NCBI RefSeq assembly: GCF_000316625.1
Contig: NC_019676.1
Location: 3,490,501-3,554,500, forward strand
DNA: 64,000 nt
Source of the DNA: Nostoc sp. PCC 7107
GTDB lineage: Bacteria; Cyanobacteriota; Cyanobacteriia; Cyanobacteriales; Nostocaceae
Direction of reading: 5' to 3'
Positions within the stretch are counted from its first letter, which is position 1; every line of letters starts with the position of its first letter. Positions 44,692 to 56,426 of this stretch are shown in pieces. A program made the translations under genes and the position numbers. The notes beneath the pieces are model-generated. The model ran no database searches and was not told the origin of the DNA. It was given only the letters and a program-made list of their open reading frames with translations.

Positions 44692-46737
44692 TTATTTCCC
44701 ATTGCCATTGCCATTGCCATTACCGTTACTAGCAAGTACTTGTTCAGCCAGTTTTTCTGGTACTTCTTGGAGATGGTCATAATCCCAGTGGAAGGAACCA
44801 ACACCTAAAGTGAGCGATCGCAACTCGACAATAAAGTTCTGCATCTCTGCTTGGGGCAAGTATGCAGAAATATTATCCCACCCTTGCCAATCTTGTCTGC
44901 CTTCGTAACCGAGAATTTGTCCCCGTCTCCCACTCAGCAGTTGCAGCACTTTTGCGGTAAATTCGCTGGGTGTGGTGACTTGCACCCGCAAAACTGGTTC
45001 TAATAAGGTGGGTTGCGCTTGGGGTATCCCTGTTTGCATTGCTAAACGTGCAGCTTGTTTAAAGGCTTGTTCGGAACTATCAACGTTGTGATAAGAACCG
45101 TTGGTGAGTGTCACAGCCACATCCACAACCGGGAAGCCTAAAGGCCCATGTGCCAAAAATTCCCGCACACCTATTTCTACCCCAGGAATATACTGTCTGG
45201 GAACTACACCACCGACAATGGTTTCTTTAAAATTGAAGCCTTCACCGCGCGGTAAGGGTTTGATATCGAGAAAAACATCACCAAATTGTCCATGTCCGCC
45301 GCTTTGGTGTTTGTAGCGTCCATGTACTGAGGTAACGGGTTTGCGAATTGTTTCTTTATAAGGTACTTGCGGTAGATGGGTAGCCATCGGCAAGTTATAT
45401 TTGCGGCGGAGTCTGTCTAAGGCGACTCGCAAATGAATTTCACCTTGTCCCCAGAGGATAACTTCATGGGTGTCACCATGTTGTTCCCAAGCCAAAGAGG
45501 GGTCTTCTTCTAATAGTTTAGCGATCGCACTGCTAAGTTTGACTTCATCATTGCGCTTTTCGGGGGTAATCGCCAAAGCATAAACAGGTTCCAACTTTTC
45601 GGCTTGCGAGAATTCCTTAACTGGCTGTGTAGAAAGTGTATCCCCTGTTTTAATATTTTCCATCCGGCTTAAGGCCACAATTTCCCCAGCCACAGCTTCA
45701 TTTACAGATTGCTGTTGTTGTCCCATCAGGCGATAAAGTCCACCCGCCCGCACACCGTTGAGAACAATCCCATCTGTTAATTTACCTTGCCAAACCCGCA
45801 CTAAAGAAAGTTTGCCGCCTTGGGGAGTGTAGTAAGTTTTTAATACCTGTGCTAAAGGTGCTTTGCTATTGATATTTTTTAAACGCTGTTCGGCTGTGGT
45901 TTCTGGTGCTGGTGCTTCTTTTAACAGTGCTTCTAATAAAGGTCTTACGCCATAATCTTGTTCTGCAACCCCAAAAAATACAGGAACTACCAAATCTGCC
46001 CCTAATTCCATTTTTAAATCTTTGAGAATTTCTTCTTGGGGTGGTTCAATATCTTCTAATAATTCTTCGAGTAGGTGGTCATCAAAATTTGCTAAAGCTT
46101 CGAGCATTTCGGCTCGTGCAATATGTTCTTCTGCTTTGAGATGTTCGGGGAAAGGTATTTGATCAGCCGGTGCGCCAGGATGATATTGATAAGCTTGTTC
46201 GCTAACCATATCAATAAAACCGGTCAACTCTTCCCCTTGCATAATGGGGTATTGGTGCGCGACTAAAGGACGACTAGAAACAGCTTTTAAGGCGTGTAAT
46301 GTTTCTAAAACATGGATATTTGCCCGATCCATTTTGTTCACAAAGACAATATGGGGAATTTCCCAATCGTCGAGGAACTTAAATAGAGGAGCAAGGGTAT
46401 GGACGCGATCGCGTATGGGTTCGCAAACTACAATTGCCGCATCAACTCCCATTAAAGCATTGTATGTTTCTTGGGCAAATTCGACGCTTCCGGGACAGTC
46501 TATAAAGGTAAAACGAATTCCGTTATAGTCGGTGCTGGCGGCGCTAACTTCTACACTCATTTGGCGATCGCGCGATTCTGTTGCACTATCTCCGACTGTG
46601 TTACCATCCTTAACGCTGCCTTTGCGAGAAATCGCACCAGTCACAAACAATAAACTTTCAAGTAAGGTAGTTTTTCCACTTAAATAAGGGCCGACAATTG
46701 CAACATTCCGCGAACCCGATGTTACTTTTTCGTTCAT
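44692..46737 (-). CDS. EF-G-like translational GTPase (EF-G2 class)
   Basis: 681 residues from the ATG at 46737, with GGGAGG 4 nt upstream; the frame to 46773 is not needed. P-loop GPYLSGKTTL differs from the GHVDHGKT of canonical EF-G but keeps GKT; DCPG, NKMDRA (G4) and domain II/IV signatures (GQFGDVFLDIKP, TLTNGSYHNVDSSEQAF) follow. It belongs to the second EF-G-like group, whose ribosome role is less defined than FusA. The tail ends in an (NG)n run (Asn-Gly repeats). It converges with clpC across a 216-bp gap. Confidence 0.9.
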   Translation of the reverse strand: MNEKVTSGSRNVAIVGPYLSGKTTLLESLLFVTGAISRKGSVKDGNTVGDSATESRDRQMSVEVSAASTDYNGIRFTFIDCPGSVEFAQETYNALMGVDAAIVVCEPIRDRVHTLAPLFKFLDDWEIPHIVFVNKMDRANIHVLETLHALKAVSSRPLVAHQYPIMQGEELTGFIDMVSEQAYQYHPGAPADQIPFPEHLKAEEHIARAEMLEALANFDDHLLEELLEDIEPPQEEILKDLKMELGADLVVPVFFGVAEQDYGVRPLLEALLKEAPAPETTAEQRLKNINSKAPLAQVLKTYYTPQGGKLSLVRVWQGKLTDGIVLNGVRAGGLYRLMGQQQQSVNEAVAGEIVALSRMENIKTGDTLSTQPVKEFSQAEKLEPVYALAITPEKRNDEVKLSSAIAKLLEEDPSLAWEQHGDTHEVILWGQGEIHLRVALDRLRRKYNLPMATHLPQVPYKETIRKPVTSVHGRYKHQSGGHGQFGDVFLDIKPLPRGEGFNFKETIVGGVVPRQYIPGVEIGVREFLAHGPLGFPVVDVAVTLTNGSYHNVDSSEQAFKQAARLAMQTGIPQAQPTLLEPVLRVQVTTPSEFTAKVLQLLSGRRGQILGYEGRQDWQGWDNISAYLPQAEMQNFIVELRSLTLGVGSFHWDYDHLQEVPEKLAEQVLASNGNGNGNGNGK

Positions 46738-47003
46738 ACAACCTCCCTTGCGGTAAGTTTTTCTTACCTGCACTACCTGTATTTTTCAGGGATAAGTATT
46801 GTTTCTCTAAACAGAGAATGATCCCTGCTTTAACTTGTTATTATCCTCCCTTTAATCAACTGCTAAAGAAATTGTAGTCAGTCGTAAGATTTAGCTTAAG
46901 AAATATTAAGCAATCAAAACTTTAATGGAAAATTTAAAATATTTGTTAAACCTTTTTGCACCACTAAACTATTAGCTTAATCTAACTTAAATTTTTGCAA
47001 AAA

Positions 47004-48993: not shown

Positions 48994-49835
48994 CTAATTA
49001 TCAGCTGCTTGCTGTACTTCCTCTACTGTTAAATCTAAAGCTTGCGCGACTTGTTCCACACTCAAACCCAAAGCCAACAACCGAGGTATAGCTTCTTGCT
49101 TGATTTCTTGCTTGGCTTCTTGCTTGGCTTCTTGCTTGGCTTCTTGCTTGGCTTCTTGCTTAGCGTCTTCAAAAGCATCTTGCTTCAAGGACTGATACAT
49201 CCTTGTTTTTTTAAATTCGTCATCTATACCTAACATTACTGCCAACTCCTCTCGGCTTAACCGCGTCAACTTGTACAAAAGGATAGTTTCTATCAATTCT
49301 ACAATTTGTTTCTTGGTTGCTTCATCTGTCAGTTGTTCTCTTGCTTGTAAAATTAATTCTCTACCTTGGTTAACTGCCGTTTCTTCACTGGCAATAATTA
49401 ATTGCACAATAGACAGTTGTAGAGAATTTTCTGTTGCTGTACCCAATTCATCTAAATAAATGCGCTGCACCTGGGAACTATCCAGCAGCAACCGATAAGG
49501 CTGTTGGTCATTGGGATCTAAACTACGCTGAGGATAGATAACAACAGCACGCCAAAAATTGACGGATGGGTTTTGTCGTAGGTAAAGAAATATCTCAGCA
49601 AAGAAACGCCGTAAAAATTTGCATCTAGTTGAAACTGGACTTCGACAAAGTATAAAGGTTGTTCGGCACTTTCGTTTTTGGGAATAAATACTCCATCAAT
49701 GCGAAAGGCTGTTTCTTTGATTTCAACAGAAACAAATTCATAGATGCTGGCATTGACATTAGTTTTGCCGATGATGGCAAAAAATATGCTAGGGAAAGCT
49801 TGAAATAAGTTATAGAATATTTTGTCAGTTTGCAC
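48994..49835 (-). pseudogene. Rpn/DUF2887-type nuclease gene broken by a one-base deletion
   Basis: The first frame (GTG at 49835, MQTDKIFYNLFQAFPSIFF) keeps the PD-(D/E)XK-type residues FRIDGVF and FVEVQFQLD. At ANFYG it leaves the family sequence and stops at 49518. The adjacent frame continues the family as FFAEIFLYLRQNPS, VVIYPQRS and LLLDSSQVQRIYLDEL, ending at 48994. Adding one C in GGCGT (near 49607-49611) restores one 280-residue frame. The C-terminal part has an EAKQ repeat. Such proteins are associated with RecA-independent recombination and mobile DNA. Either a true pseudogene or a sequencing error. Confidence 0.82.
49098..49163 (-). repeat. In-frame 12-bp tandem repeats (EAKQ units)
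   Basis: About five to six copies of GAAGCCAAGCAA (minus strand), encoding a run of EAKQ units in the C-terminal part of the Rpn-type gene. A slippage-prone helical linker. Confidence 0.88.
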
Positions 49836-49886: not shown

Positions 49887-50633
49887 CTAAATATTTATAG
49901 GAATAATTTCAGCTTTTATTAAAGCATTACGCCAAGCGATTTTCGCTGCTATACGGTAATCCATCTCTTTAGAATCCACTGGATGATAGCTACCATCATT
50001 AATTATAATTCTCATAGAATTGAGGGCAATATTGGTTTGATGAAAATAATCAAATATGCCATCAATAATTCCTTCAAAAATTGCTGGTATCCACTCAAGC
50101 GGAATGATTTCTTCATCATCAATTTGCCATACAATCTCAATGTGTGAGTTAGCAATTATAGGCTCGATTTTTAAGCACACATGACCATAACTGTCAATAC
50201 TCGAAGACTGTCGCACAAATTTACCTTCTACTATTAATGGTTGAACAATAGAATAAAGCTTATATTCTGCTTTATTCCATAAATTAAGTTTCAGTGTTCC
50301 CTCAAAGTCATCCCAAATATTAGCGACCCAATGCCAATTTTCGATATAACTACAAAGGTGATACCAATCAGAATTACGGATACATTTATAAAATTTAAAT
50401 AAATTATATAAATTGCTAATATCTTCGGAATTTGGTTGTGCGGTTTCTATTAGTTCTAGTAATTTTCTAGCTGCTGCTATTGTCTCATTGGTAAACAATT
50501 CTCCAGATTCTTCATATCTTCCTCTTTCTGGATTTTGATGTAATAACTCAATCGTGCGATGCAACCATTCAAGGTTTTTAGTTCTGGACTCGTAAGTATA
50601 ATATTGGGTTTTACTTAGTTTTATGCCATTCAT
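49887..50633 (-). CDS. Unrecognised protein with a C-terminal EF-G domain IV-like module
   Basis: 248 residues, no GTPase. Residues 1-130 are unknown (charged, aromatic, helical). From about 135, the sequence follows EF-G domain IV: VEGKFVRQSSS, YGHVCLKIEPI, IIPLEWIPAIFEGIIDGIF, and NDGSYHPVDSKEMDYRIAAK. In EF-G the matching segments read EGKFIRQSGG, YGHV, IPKEYIPAVE and DGSYHDVDSSEMAFKIAA. Domain IV of EF-G reaches the ribosomal decoding centre. The Gly-rich tip GGRGQ is replaced by SSIDS. It starts 9 bp after the kinase gene on the same strand, so it likely shares an operon with the AmpG-like permease. Role unknown. Confidence 0.78.
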   Translation of the reverse strand: MNGIKLSKTQYYTYESRTKNLEWLHRTIELLHQNPERGRYEESGELFTNETIAAARKLLELIETAQPNSEDISNLYNLFKFYKCIRNSDWYHLCSYIENWHWVANIWDDFEGTLKLNLWNKAEYKLYSIVQPLIVEGKFVRQSSSIDSYGHVCLKIEPIIANSHIEIVWQIDDEEIIPLEWIPAIFEGIIDGIFDYFHQTNIALNSMRIIINDGSYHPVDSKEMDYRIAAKIAWRNALIKAEIIPINI

Positions 50634-50642
50634 ATAGATTAA

Positions 50643-51620
50643 TTAAAATCTTAATCCTGTAGTAGATAAACTCTGCAAAGCTAATAAACCAGCACCATAA
50701 GCAGGTTCATCACAAGGAAAACTTACTTTTACCCGCGGAAACTGATTAACGATAGCTTTTGTAAATCTCTTATGTATCTTGCTTTCTCCTCGCCACACAC
50801 TACCTGTAGTTACAATTTCACAAACTGAGTTAGGGCTAAAAATTGCATTAATAACTGTAGATGTGGCTTTTACTAATTCTTGAACAACATCGTCAATTAT
50901 ATTATTAGCTAATGTATCACCTGAAGCGGCTGCTAAATCTACAATTTGAGCTAAAGAGGCTATTTCTTTAACTCCCCATCCACGCTGATATATTACTTCG
51001 ATTAATTCTGCTATATTCTGTAAACCGAGATGTTGTTGAAAATCTGATATCAAACTCGTCGATATTTCCCACCCATCATAAGATTTTAATGCTGCTTGCA
51101 TACCAGCAACAGCAATTTTGTAGGCACTACCTTCATCACCTAAAATGTATCCCCAACCGCCGACTCGTTTAGTGTCTCCTTGTTGATTTCGACCAAAAAT
51201 TATGGAACCAGTACCCGCAGCAACTACAATTCCCACGTCATGACCAATTCCGCCAACTAAAGCAATCAAAGCATCATGACAAATAATAATATTAGCTGGC
51301 TGTAAATCCCAAGTAATTGGCAAGAATTGACTATTTTGTAATTCCTGTACCATACTTCTAACTACTTCAATATCTCTAGAACGTCCAACACCTGCTAAAC
51401 CTAAACAGAAGGCTGAGATTTCGATTGTATTCGTGAATTTTAATGCTTCATTTGCTGCTGTTTGAATAGCAGAATAAATTGATTGTCTTGCGGCTTCAAC
51501 GCCTATGCTTTGATAATTAGATGCGCCTGCTGCACCTCGACCTAGTACTTGATATTTGTCATCCATCAAGATACATAAGGTTTTGCTACCACCGCCATCT
51601 ATTCCTAAAACATAATTCAT
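50643..51620 (-). CDS. BadF/BadG-type sugar kinase, probable N-acetylglucosamine kinase
   Basis: 325 residues of the ASKHA/BadF family. Phosphate-1 motif GIDGGGSKTLCILMDD, the IVVAAGTGSIIFG motif, GWGYILGDEGSAY and the adenosine motif region VTTGSVWRGESK. Homologues phosphorylate N-acetylglucosamine. It sits 6 bp after the AmpG-like permease, which supports a role in recovering cell-wall amino sugars. ATG at 51620. Confidence 0.85.
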   Translation of the reverse strand: MNYVLGIDGGGSKTLCILMDDKYQVLGRGAAGASNYQSIGVEAARQSIYSAIQTAANEALKFTNTIEISAFCLGLAGVGRSRDIEVVRSMVQELQNSQFLPITWDLQPANIIICHDALIALVGGIGHDVGIVVAAGTGSIIFGRNQQGDTKRVGGWGYILGDEGSAYKIAVAGMQAALKSYDGWEISTSLISDFQQHLGLQNIAELIEVIYQRGWGVKEIASLAQIVDLAAASGDTLANNIIDDVVQELVKATSTVINAIFSPNSVCEIVTTGSVWRGESKIHKRFTKAIVNQFPRVKVSFPCDEPAYGAGLLALQSLSTTGLRF

Positions 51621-51626
51621 AGCTTC

Positions 51627-52889
51627 TTAATGTGCAGGAGATTTTTTCTGTGCTTCTGCTTTTAAAGGAATGAAAAATAACACAATCATTCCCGGAATAG
51701 TTAGCAAACAAACCAAACTAAAAAACAATGGATATCCTAATAATGGTTGTAAATAGCCGCTGACGATTCCAGGTAGCATCATTCCTAAAGCCATAATGCC
51801 AGTAGATATAGCAAAATGAGATGTTTTATATTCACCTTGGGAAATATACATCAAGTAAACACTAAAAGCTGTAAACCCAAAACCGTAACCAAATTGTTCT
51901 AATGAAACCAGCGGATAAACTAAGTTCAACGAAGGTTGGTTATAAGCCATATAAACATAAAATAAATCTGGTAAATTCAAGGCTAAAGCCATAGGAAAGA
52001 GACATCTTCTTAAACCATACTTGGCAATTACCAATCCCCCTAAAACTCCCCCAGCAATTAGTGAGATTACTCCAAATGTACCGTATACTAAACCAACATC
52101 CGAAGTAGATAATCCTAGTCCGCCTGCGTCTGGTTTATCTAACAAAAATAAAGAAGCAAACTTAACAAGCATCGCCTCACCAAATCGGTAAAGTAAAATA
52201 AATGCTAAGATGACTGCAATTTTTTCTTGAGCAAAATAAGAACTTATAATTGTCCAAAAAGGCATCTTATCTGTGTTTTGTAGTTGTCTTGGTTTATCGG
52301 AATCTGGTAAAGGTAAACTGAAGCTATGGAAAATAGAAATTATGGCTAAAACTACAGCAGAAAAACCAATCGATACACTCCAGCTTAAGGGAATGTTGTT
52401 GAGATAGCCTTCAAGTTGACCAGCTAAAACTACTAACAGTCCCGAACCAAAAATAACCGCAAGTCGATAAAATAGCGAGCGAATGCCGACAAAAAAGGCT
52501 TGGTGTTCTGGAGTTAAAGCTAGTAGATAAAAGCCATCTGTGGCGATATCATAAGTTGCAGAAATAAATGCTCCCACTGTTAAGGCGGCGAGGGAGATAA
52601 AAAAGAAATTAGGTAATTGTAAGCAAAAGGCAATTAAACCCAAGCAACAGAACATTGCTAGTTGGGTGTAGAGTATCCAGGTGCGTTTGGTGGAATAAGT
52701 ATCAACAATTGGCCCCCAGAACATTTTAATCACCCAAGGAAGATAAAGAAGACTTGTCCACACGGCAATTTGGGTGTTGTCTACGCCGAGTTTTTTGTAA
52801 AAGATGACGGAGACGGTGTTGATGATGATGTAAGGTACACCGGAGGCGAAATATAAGGTGGGGATGTAAAGCCAGGGGGAGCGTGACAT
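51627..52889 (-). CDS. AmpG-like MFS permease
   Basis: 420 residues with about 12 membrane helices. The opening PWLYIPTLYFASGVPYIIIN, WVIKMFWGPIVDTY and ISATYDIATDGFYLLAL follow the AmpG/MFS_1 pattern of muropeptide importers. Proposed substrate: anhydro-muropeptides or GlcNAc-containing sugars. First gene of a compact unit: the kinase follows after 6 bp, and the EF-G domain IV protein 9 bp after that. ATG at 52889. Confidence 0.82.
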   Translation of the reverse strand: MSRSPWLYIPTLYFASGVPYIIINTVSVIFYKKLGVDNTQIAVWTSLLYLPWVIKMFWGPIVDTYSTKRTWILYTQLAMFCCLGLIAFCLQLPNFFFISLAALTVGAFISATYDIATDGFYLLALTPEHQAFFVGIRSLFYRLAVIFGSGLLVVLAGQLEGYLNNIPLSWSVSIGFSAVVLAIISIFHSFSLPLPDSDKPRQLQNTDKMPFWTIISSYFAQEKIAVILAFILLYRFGEAMLVKFASLFLLDKPDAGGLGLSTSDVGLVYGTFGVISLIAGGVLGGLVIAKYGLRRCLFPMALALNLPDLFYVYMAYNQPSLNLVYPLVSLEQFGYGFGFTAFSVYLMYISQGEYKTSHFAISTGIMALGMMLPGIVSGYLQPLLGYPLFFSLVCLLTIPGMIVLFFIPLKAEAQKKSPAH

Positions 52890-53453: not shown

Positions 53454-56426
53454 ATGACCGCAACTATCTCGAATCTCCCCAGTCTCTACGATCCGTTTAC
53501 CACTGAAGCTAAGTGGCAAAAATTCTGGGAAGAAAACCAAGTTTATAAAGCTGACCCTAATCACGGCGGTGAACCTTATTGTGTGGTGATTCCGCCGCCG
53601 AATGTTACTGGTAGTTTGCACATGGGTCACGCCTTTGAAAGTGCGCTGATTGATGTGCTGGTACGCTATCACCGGATGCAGGGACGCAATACTTTGTGGC
53701 TACCGGGAACTGACCACGCTAGTATCGCTGTCCATACGATGCTAGAAAGACAACTCAAAAAAGAGGGTAAAACTCGCGCTGAGTTGGGGCGTGAGGAATT
53801 TCTCGAACGCGCTTGGCAGTGGAAGGCGGAGTCTGGTGGCACAATTGTGAATCAGTTACGCCGCTTGGGTGTATCGGTGGACTGGTCGCGGGAACGGTTC
53901 ACGTTAGATGAGGGCTTATCTAAAGCTGTGGTGGAAGCTTTTGTGAGTCTTTACCAGGAAGGGTTAATTTATCGTGGTGAATATTTGGTGAACTGGTGTC
54001 CGGCTACTCAGTCGGCGGTGTCGGATGTGGAGGTGGAAAAACAAGAGGTTAACGGTAATCTTTGGCATTTCCGCTATCCTTTAACAGATGGTTCTGGTTA
54101 TGTTGAGGTGGCGACGACTCGACCAGAAACGATGTTGGGTGATACTGGGGTGGCAGTAAATCCCAATGATGATAGATATAAGCATCTGATTGGTAAAACT
54201 TTGACTTTGCCAATTATGCAGCGGGAAATCCCAATTATTGGCGATGAATTGGTTGACCCAACTTTCGGTACTGGTTGCGTGAAGGTAACGCCAGCCCATG
54301 ATCCCAATGATTTTGAAATGGGTAAGCGTCACAATTTGCCGTTTATTAATATTTTGAATAAAGATGGGACTCTGAATGCTAATGCTGGGGAGTTTCAAGG
54401 ACAAGACCGCTTTGTGGCAAGAAAAAATGTAGTTTCGCGTCTGGAAGCTGATGGAGTTTTAGTCAAAATTGAAGATTATAAGCATACCGTTCCTTATAGC
54501 GATCGCGGTAAAGTTCCCATTGAACCTCTCTTGTCTACTCAATGGTTTGTCAAAATTCGCCCAATGGCGGACAACGCCCTAGCATTTCTCGACCAACAAA
54601 ATTCTCCTGAGTTTGTTCCTCAACGCTGGACAAAGGTTTACCGTGATTGGTTGGTGAGTCTGCGAGATTGGTGTATCTCCCGTCAATTGTGGTGGGGACA
54701 TCAAATTCCCGCTTGGTACGCTGTGAGTGAAACAGGCGGACAAATTACTGATACTACGCCGTTTGTGGTGGCGAAATCGACCGAGGAGGCTTGGGAAAAA
54801 GCGAAAGCCCAATTTGGCGAAAATGTCCAACTTCAACAAGACCCAGATGTATTAGATACTTGGTTTTCTTCAGGACTATGGCCGTTTTCTACTTTGGGCT
54901 GGCCAGAACAAACCCCAGATTTAGCTAAGTACTACCCCACCACTACCTTAGTGACAGGTTTTGACATTATCTTTTTCTGGGTAGCGAGAATGACAATGAT
55001 GGCTGGTCATTTCACCGGGAAAATGCCGTTTCATGATGTTTACATCCACGGGTTAGTGCTGGATGAAAAAGGTCAGAAAATGTCTAAAACCAAAGGTAAT
55101 GGCATTGACCCATTATTATTAATTGATAAATATGGTACAGATGCCTTACGCTACACCTTAGTGAAGGAAGTTGCTGGTGCTGGTCAAGATATCCGCTTAG
55201 AATACGATCGCGACAAGGATGAATCAGCATCCGTGCAAGCTTCTCGCAACTTTGCCAACAAGTTGTGGAATGCGGCGCGGTTTGTGATGATGAATTTGGA
55301 TGGACAGACACCGCAACAACTAGGACAACCCGTTGCTAGTGAATTAAGCGATCGCTGGATTATTTCTCGCTATCATCAAGTTATTAACCAAACTACCAAT
55401 TACATCAATAACTACGGTTTAGGGGAAGCAGCCAAGGGAATTTACGAATTTATCTGGGGCGATTTCTGCGACTGGTATATTGAGTTGGTGAAATCTCGGT
55501 TACAACCAGGTGCCGATCCCGCATCCCGCCGCACCGCCCAACAAGTCCTCGCCTACGTACTGGAAGGGATTTTAAAACTACTGCATCCCTTTATGCCCCA
55601 CATCACCGAAGAAATTTGGCAAACCCTCACTCAACAACCCGCAGATTCTCTGCAAACTTTAGCTTTACAAGCTTATCCCCAAGCCGAGGCTAACTTAATT
55701 GATCCCGCGTTGGAAGAACAGTTTGAACTGCTAATTGGTACTATCCGCACGATTCGTAATTTACGGGCGGAGGCGGATGTCAAGCCAGGGGCGAAAGTGA
55801 AGGTGAATTTACAGACCGATAGCCTCAAGGAACAGCAAATTTTAACGGCTGGACAAGCTTATATCAAAGATTTGGCTAAGGTAGAAGCTTTAACGTTTGC
55901 GGAAGAGCAAAAAAGCCAAACTGTAGCGCCGTCAAAATCGCAGTGGAATTGGAAGACTATTGGCTTAGTAATAGCCGGGCTTGTATTTCTGCGAATAGGT
56001 TTAGCTGTGGCGCATACTGTTAATCAAATTCCCCTGGCTGGTACTTTCTTTGAAATTGTGGGTTTAGGTTATAGTATTTGGTTTATTGCCCGCAGTATAT
56101 TGTTTGCCAAAGCTAAACTCCCAGAACAGCCGCCAGCAGTTTTAGAACCAGTCCCAGCCTCAGAACAAACCATTGCTGGGGTCATTGGTACAGTTCAAGT
56201 TGTCATTCCCCTGACTGGTGTTGTTGACATCGAAACAGTACGTGCCAAATTAGCTAAAAACCTTACTAAAGTCGAAGCAGAAGCCCAGTCTCTCAGAGGT
56301 AGGTTAAGCAATCCTAAGTTTGTCGATAAAGCTCCAGCCGACGTGGTACAAGGGGCGAAAGATGCCTTAGCTGAGGCAGAAAAACAAGCCGAAATTTTGC
56401 GCTTACGCCTTCAGACATTGCTGTAG
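53454..56426 (+). CDS. valS: Valyl-tRNA synthetase ValS with CAAD membrane segment
   Basis: 990 residues. Class I synthetase: HMGHA signature (residue about 59), editing domain with the [17 protein letters not shown] region, [15 protein letters not shown] and KMSKTKGN (about 545), then the anticodon-binding domain. Residues about 818-910 are an inserted CAAD domain: a hydrophobic stretch ([20 protein letters not shown]) and a second ([18 protein letters not shown]). A coiled coil with the [20 protein letters not shown] start ends the protein. CAAD anchors aminoacyl-tRNA synthetases to thylakoid membranes in filamentous cyanobacteria. ATG at 53454, 143 bp from the divergent GxxExxY start. Confidence 0.97.

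Follow-up and report, generated by a model that had tools for sequence, protein, structure and literature searches.

A patchy cyanobacterial protein family that carries EF-G domain IV without the GTPase

The tRNA-imitating domain of EF-G, domain IV (PF03764), is familiar as one section of a GTPase built from several domains. The YigZ/IMPACT family consists of small proteins described as having an EF-G domain IV-like fold and no GTPase. Here we describe a gene that encodes domain IV alone, joined to a helical domain, in a 64,000 nucleotide stretch of Nostoc sp. PCC 7107 (NC_019676.1, positions 3,490,501 to 3,554,500), which we call the window. A first-pass annotation made from the letters of the window had proposed a stand-alone EF-G domain IV protein here. 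Several described systems are close enough for comparison. According to the available part of PMC9307594, the EF-G tip residues H583 and Q507 contact the tRNA-mRNA complex. Tet(M) and Tet(O) are likewise related to EF-G and have domain IV tip loops that depart from it, but they differ from our protein in retaining the whole EF-G domain set, as the available sections of PMC4342817 describe. Two kinds of conflict locus bear on the genomic setting. SUKH-dominated and mixed polyimmunity loci that bring unlike immunity genes together are described in the accessible portion of PMC3482391, and ten copies of our gene similarly lie in islands of SUKH-type and unlike small genes; neither EF-G nor any elongation factor is mentioned in the portion of that text searched. 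For the NTP-dependent conflict systems of multicellular prokaryotes, the available part of PMC7159879 puts forward decoy effectors and mentions domains of elongation factor Tu at a variable position; the domain there is that of EF-Tu, not EF-G domain IV.

The gene and its parts are laid out as follows.

49887..50633, minus strand: stand-alone EF-G domain IV protein of 248 amino acids (open reading frame, Pfam and structural match)
50289..50633, minus strand: N-terminal helical domain, residues 1-115, without a convincing relative
49911..50231, minus strand: EF-G domain IV (PF03764), residues 135-241
50187..50210, minus strand: tip loop 1, residues 142-149, QSSSIDSY replacing the EF-G QSGGxGQY
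49962..49997, minus strand: tip loop 2, residues 213-224, DGSYHPVDSKEM

The window protein, hereafter the EF-G-tip protein, consists of EF-G domain IV, separated from the GTPase motor, and a helical domain that has no known relative. In a Pfam scan EFG_IV was the sole match at E<=1, in contrast to the YigZ/IMPACT proteins; it covered residues 135-241 and, at 44.5 bits, was well over the cut-off of 24. The GTP-binding domain and EF-G domains II, III and V gave no Pfam match at that threshold. The best match among PDB sequences was Thermus EF-G (E 1.5e-16, residues 128-242). A structural comparison with EF-G domain IV, chosen beforehand as a test on which the proposal could fail, gave a strong match to the fold. 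The annotation was also right that the N half has no recognised relative. Across Pfam, NCBIfam, PHROGs and PADLOC, the protein matched EFG_IV and otherwise only parts of full EF-G or tet_protect models far below their cut-offs (10.5 bits against 775 for tet_protect of NCBIfam). Domain IV itself is already known; a literature search recognised no paper on a detached EF-G domain IV family.

Within the genome of the window, the EFG_IV profile occurred in four places: three EF-G-type genes, with open frames of 685-697 amino acids, and the gene studied here. A full-length EF-G-like paralogue lies at window positions 44692-46773 (NF009379, 1101.9 bits), only 3 kb from the window gene. Descent of the window gene from this paralogue was considered and was not supported.

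The same domain composition holds beyond the window. In alignment A3, each of the 12 members matched EFG_IV at E<=1, with 2.9e-13 as the best value, and the nine Pfam families listed for these 12 include no GTPase, in line with the absence of a GTPase that had been read from the window protein. A tree built on 56 domain IV rows separated the 20 rows of the family from the 36 EF-G rows with a branch support of 100/100. The separating branch is long, and the tree therefore does not place the origin of the family within EF-G. The two tip loops have fared differently, as the annotation had stated. For tip loop 1, the pattern QSGG[KR]GQ[YF]GH was present in 35 of 39 EF-G rows and missed the other four; its GGxGQ core was present in none of the 20 aligned family rows. 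In the alignment, residue Q142 sits opposite Q500 in Thermus EF-G, which is Q507 in E. coli, and this position is Q in only 6/20 family rows. By contrast, tip loop 2 reads GS[YF]H in 39/39 EF-G rows and G-S-[Y/H]-H in every family row, with G, S and H invariant. The histidine, H217 in the window protein, sits opposite H573 in Thermus EF-G, which is H583 in E. coli. The family domain is somewhat more acidic, with a mean net charge of -5.2 over 21 rows versus -2.7 over 39 EF-G domain IV rows, the segment ends being not identical. In the N-terminal helical domain, 26 of the 115 positions are invariant across 20 rows.

Overall, the gene family is real, patchy in cyanobacteria, partly plasmid-borne and often mobile. 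We counted 23 distinct cyanobacterial loci after merging genomes that occurred twice; 21 copies are intact and two are split (G795 and G902). All 21 intact copies have one two-domain plan with the same N half, no GTPase is among the families listed for the 12 members scanned, and the family stands as a clade apart; the second outcome that would have told against the proposal, homologues that are in-frame parts of a full EF-G, was not observed. The genus, family and class samples that we searched overlap. With the N half as query, relatives were found in 6 of 11 genomes of the genus, 18 of 217 genomes and 9 of 56 genera of the family, and 4 of 388 genomes of the class. Within the order, at least 3 of 291 genomes held a full-length relative; the remaining matches listed fell in domain IV of long EF-G frames. 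An 11-row profile run on 292 genomes of the phylum had the same three genomes among the matches listed. Three of 72,556 plasmid records carried a copy over 80% of the query, namely Calothrix brevissima NIES-22 plasmids 1 and 2 and Nostoc carneum NIES-2107 plasmid 3; one plasmid-borne copy is split. A search of genome contigs showed copies in Nostoc sp. FACHB-280 and Nostoc spongiaeforme FACHB-130. A weak match in an Oscillospiraceae metagenome-assembled genome covered residues 137-241 only.

To quantify selection, we calculated the ratio of nonsynonymous to synonymous substitution rates (dN/dS) for 13 chosen pairs, treating the N and C halves separately. In seven pairs dS exceeded 0.17 in each half; their dN/dS was 0.19-0.44 in either half, and the gene is therefore under constraint. 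The pair G291-G300 gave 1.01 in the N half (dS 0.04) and 0.46 in the C half. Five close pairs from the SUKH-linked clade gave 0.43-1.75 in the N half and 0.56-3.51 in the C half, at dS of 0.015-0.124. A constrained family that has domain IV alone, with an invariant tip histidine, makes it possible to test in isolation what the tip is capable of.

The most frequent neighbours are SUKH-type genes. One lies directly upstream at 10 of the 23 loci, and a second lies downstream at nine of these ten. The downstream type passes the Pfam SMI1_KNR4 cut-off (30.5 bits vs 25.4); the upstream type taken alone is below it (16.9 bits) and was grouped with the downstream type by BLAST clustering. The usual island order is a protein of 161-172 amino acids without assignment, the upstream SUKH-type gene, the EF-G-tip gene, a protein of about 474 amino acids and the second SUKH-type gene, which in some islands is preceded by a WD40-like protein. 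One copy (G220a) has no 474 amino acid gene. Genes with LRR, WG-repeat and LprI domains occur in the same islands. The 474 amino acid protein (L056 8824-10248) had no match in Pfam, PADLOC or PHROGs at E<=0.1, and nine island proteins submitted to PADLOC gave one weak methyltransferase match (E 0.012). At E<=1e-20, 17 of 208 genomes had matches to the 474 amino acid protein, paralogues and fragments included, with 13 places near full length. The EF-G-tip gene stands beside nine of these places. Three of the remaining four are without both the upstream SUKH gene and the EF-G-tip gene, one of them keeping a piece of the preceding gene, and the fourth has only the last 88 residues of the EF-G-tip gene. 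Since it is missing or fragmentary at 4 of the 13 places, the EF-G-tip gene behaves as a loose insert. Beside one split copy is a defence-like pair (L119 5652-7554), made up of an RloB-like gene (18.9 bits, below its cut-off) and an AAA_21 gene.

Our best guess, which we hold weakly, is that the EF-G-tip protein is a putative accessory conflict protein that uses an EF-G look-alike as a decoy or shield. Its role would be immunity-like. Domain IV would serve as the look-alike, and its kept tip, the GS-Y/H-H loop, would be bound by an agent, be it a toxin, an effector or an inhibitor, with an affinity for EF-G domain IV or for the site where that domain docks. The protein would either soak up this agent or shield the docking site, and the helical domain might give specificity or hold the complex. 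We favour this because the sequence and the fold are those of EF-G domain IV, and because the tip histidine is kept in 20/20 rows despite the loss of loop 1 and a Q507-equivalent in 6/20; the kept tip may thus still be recognised as an EF-G tip. The SUKH loci, the loose-insert pattern, the plasmid copies and the RloB-like/AAA_21 pair argue in the same direction, on the supposition that the SUKH-island context means conflict, as do the decoys proposed and the elongation factor Tu domains reported in the available part of PMC7159879. A more specific version, which we consider rather doubtful, is that these are mobile EF-G domain IV decoys acting as putative immunity factors against agents whose target is EF-G or the decoding centre. 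If true, such a decoy family would imply a still unseen class of these agents; in general, a detached domain IV family may point to agents aimed at EF-G.

Several observations weigh against a decoy or shield. Thirteen of the 23 copies, that of the window included, had no member of the SUKH cluster in the neighbouring stretch examined. Pfam recognised no polymorphic-toxin domain in 46 neighbour proteins, which are part of all neighbours, and PADLOC had no match for the window protein. A narrow literature search for toxins directed at bacterial EF-G found no paper. When amino-acid and silent states were compared in the SUKH-linked clade, tip loop 1 was not singled out (Fisher p 0.19), and the excess of change in the C half over the N half in that clade was a mere hint (Fisher p 0.05).

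Another account, to us nearly as probable as the decoy or shield, is that the fold has been re-used, so that domain IV is a scaffold for binding a protein or ligand with no link to translation. It would fit the absence of GGxGQ from all 20 rows and the scarcity of the Q507-equivalent (6/20), the more acidic domain, the varied neighbours and the long branch in the domain IV tree. It fits less well with the invariance of G, S and H in the second tip loop: H583 is an EF-G contact residue in the available part of PMC9307594, and upkeep of the fold alone would therefore not obviously keep H217.

A ribosome-directed factor seems to us somewhat less likely. Here domain IV would enter the decoding site and modulate, protect or park ribosomes, with the helical domain anchoring the protein in place of the GTPase. 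However, the protein lacks the GTPase and the remaining EF-G domains that could deliver it to the ribosome, tip loop 1 is lost and the domain is slightly more acidic. Moreover, the patchy distribution of a dispensable gene, with split copies and remnants, is unlike that of a core factor.

The setting in the window had suggested a part in an operon of amino-sugar recycling type, on account of two neighbours.

50643..51620, minus strand: BadF/NagK-type sugar kinase, directly upstream of the window gene, a neighbour and no consistent partner
51627..52889, minus strand: AmpG-type permease of the major facilitator superfamily (MFS), a neighbour

As a description this was accurate, since the window gene starts 9 bp behind the kinase and an AmpG-type gene is nearby; as a guide to function it did not hold. 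The order of kinase and then EF-G-tip gene is common to four members of the genus (the window, G291, G295a and G300), and in G291 the two open reading frames overlap by 4 bases. A DUF1349 gene is downstream in three of these four, and in one of the three (L036 8001-9296) it and the EF-G-tip gene form a single read-through frame of 431 amino acids. However, the kinase is present in 11/11 genomes of the genus and has an intact copy behind it in only four. A survey of neighbourhoods showed no conserved kinase linkage among the other 19 copies: 10 follow a SUKH-type gene, two an ABC permease and one a T2SSE ATPase, and six (G783b, G889, G940, G945, G902 and G369) have no same-strand open reading frame of >90 amino acids ending within 400 bp upstream. 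Because the kinase precedes just 4 of 23 copies and the others sit elsewhere, the amino-sugar setting does not define the function; the link to sugar recycling looks incidental, and a working part in such an operon is very unlikely.

Least probable of all, to the point of being negligible, is a decaying EF-G gene fragment without function: two split copies and two remnants found by tblastn outside the 23 loci (residues 125-201 and 215-244 behind the G292 kinase; the last 88 residues at the second locus of G294) would suit it, but the N half common to all 21 intact copies, the dN/dS of both halves in the seven pairs and a clade separate from EF-G speak against it.

Some further neighbours were recorded. 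Just downstream of the window gene, a DUF2887/Rpn-type gene is in two pieces (window 48994-49491 and 49518-49835); in G296-G298 a DUF2887 gene comes after the kinase, and no EF-G-tip copy was found there. One copy is adjoined on the opposite strand by a protein of 1362 amino acids with RTX and HCBP_related repeats (L117 8992-13080). For the copy that lies outside the order, a DUF1877 gene (L063 11028-11543, 76.6 bits) is found about 0.8 kb upstream on the same strand. Finally, the open reading frame of 990 amino acids at window 53454-56426 is presumably a valyl-tRNA synthetase with a C-terminal extension of the cyanobacterial CAAD type that holds hydrophobic stretches.
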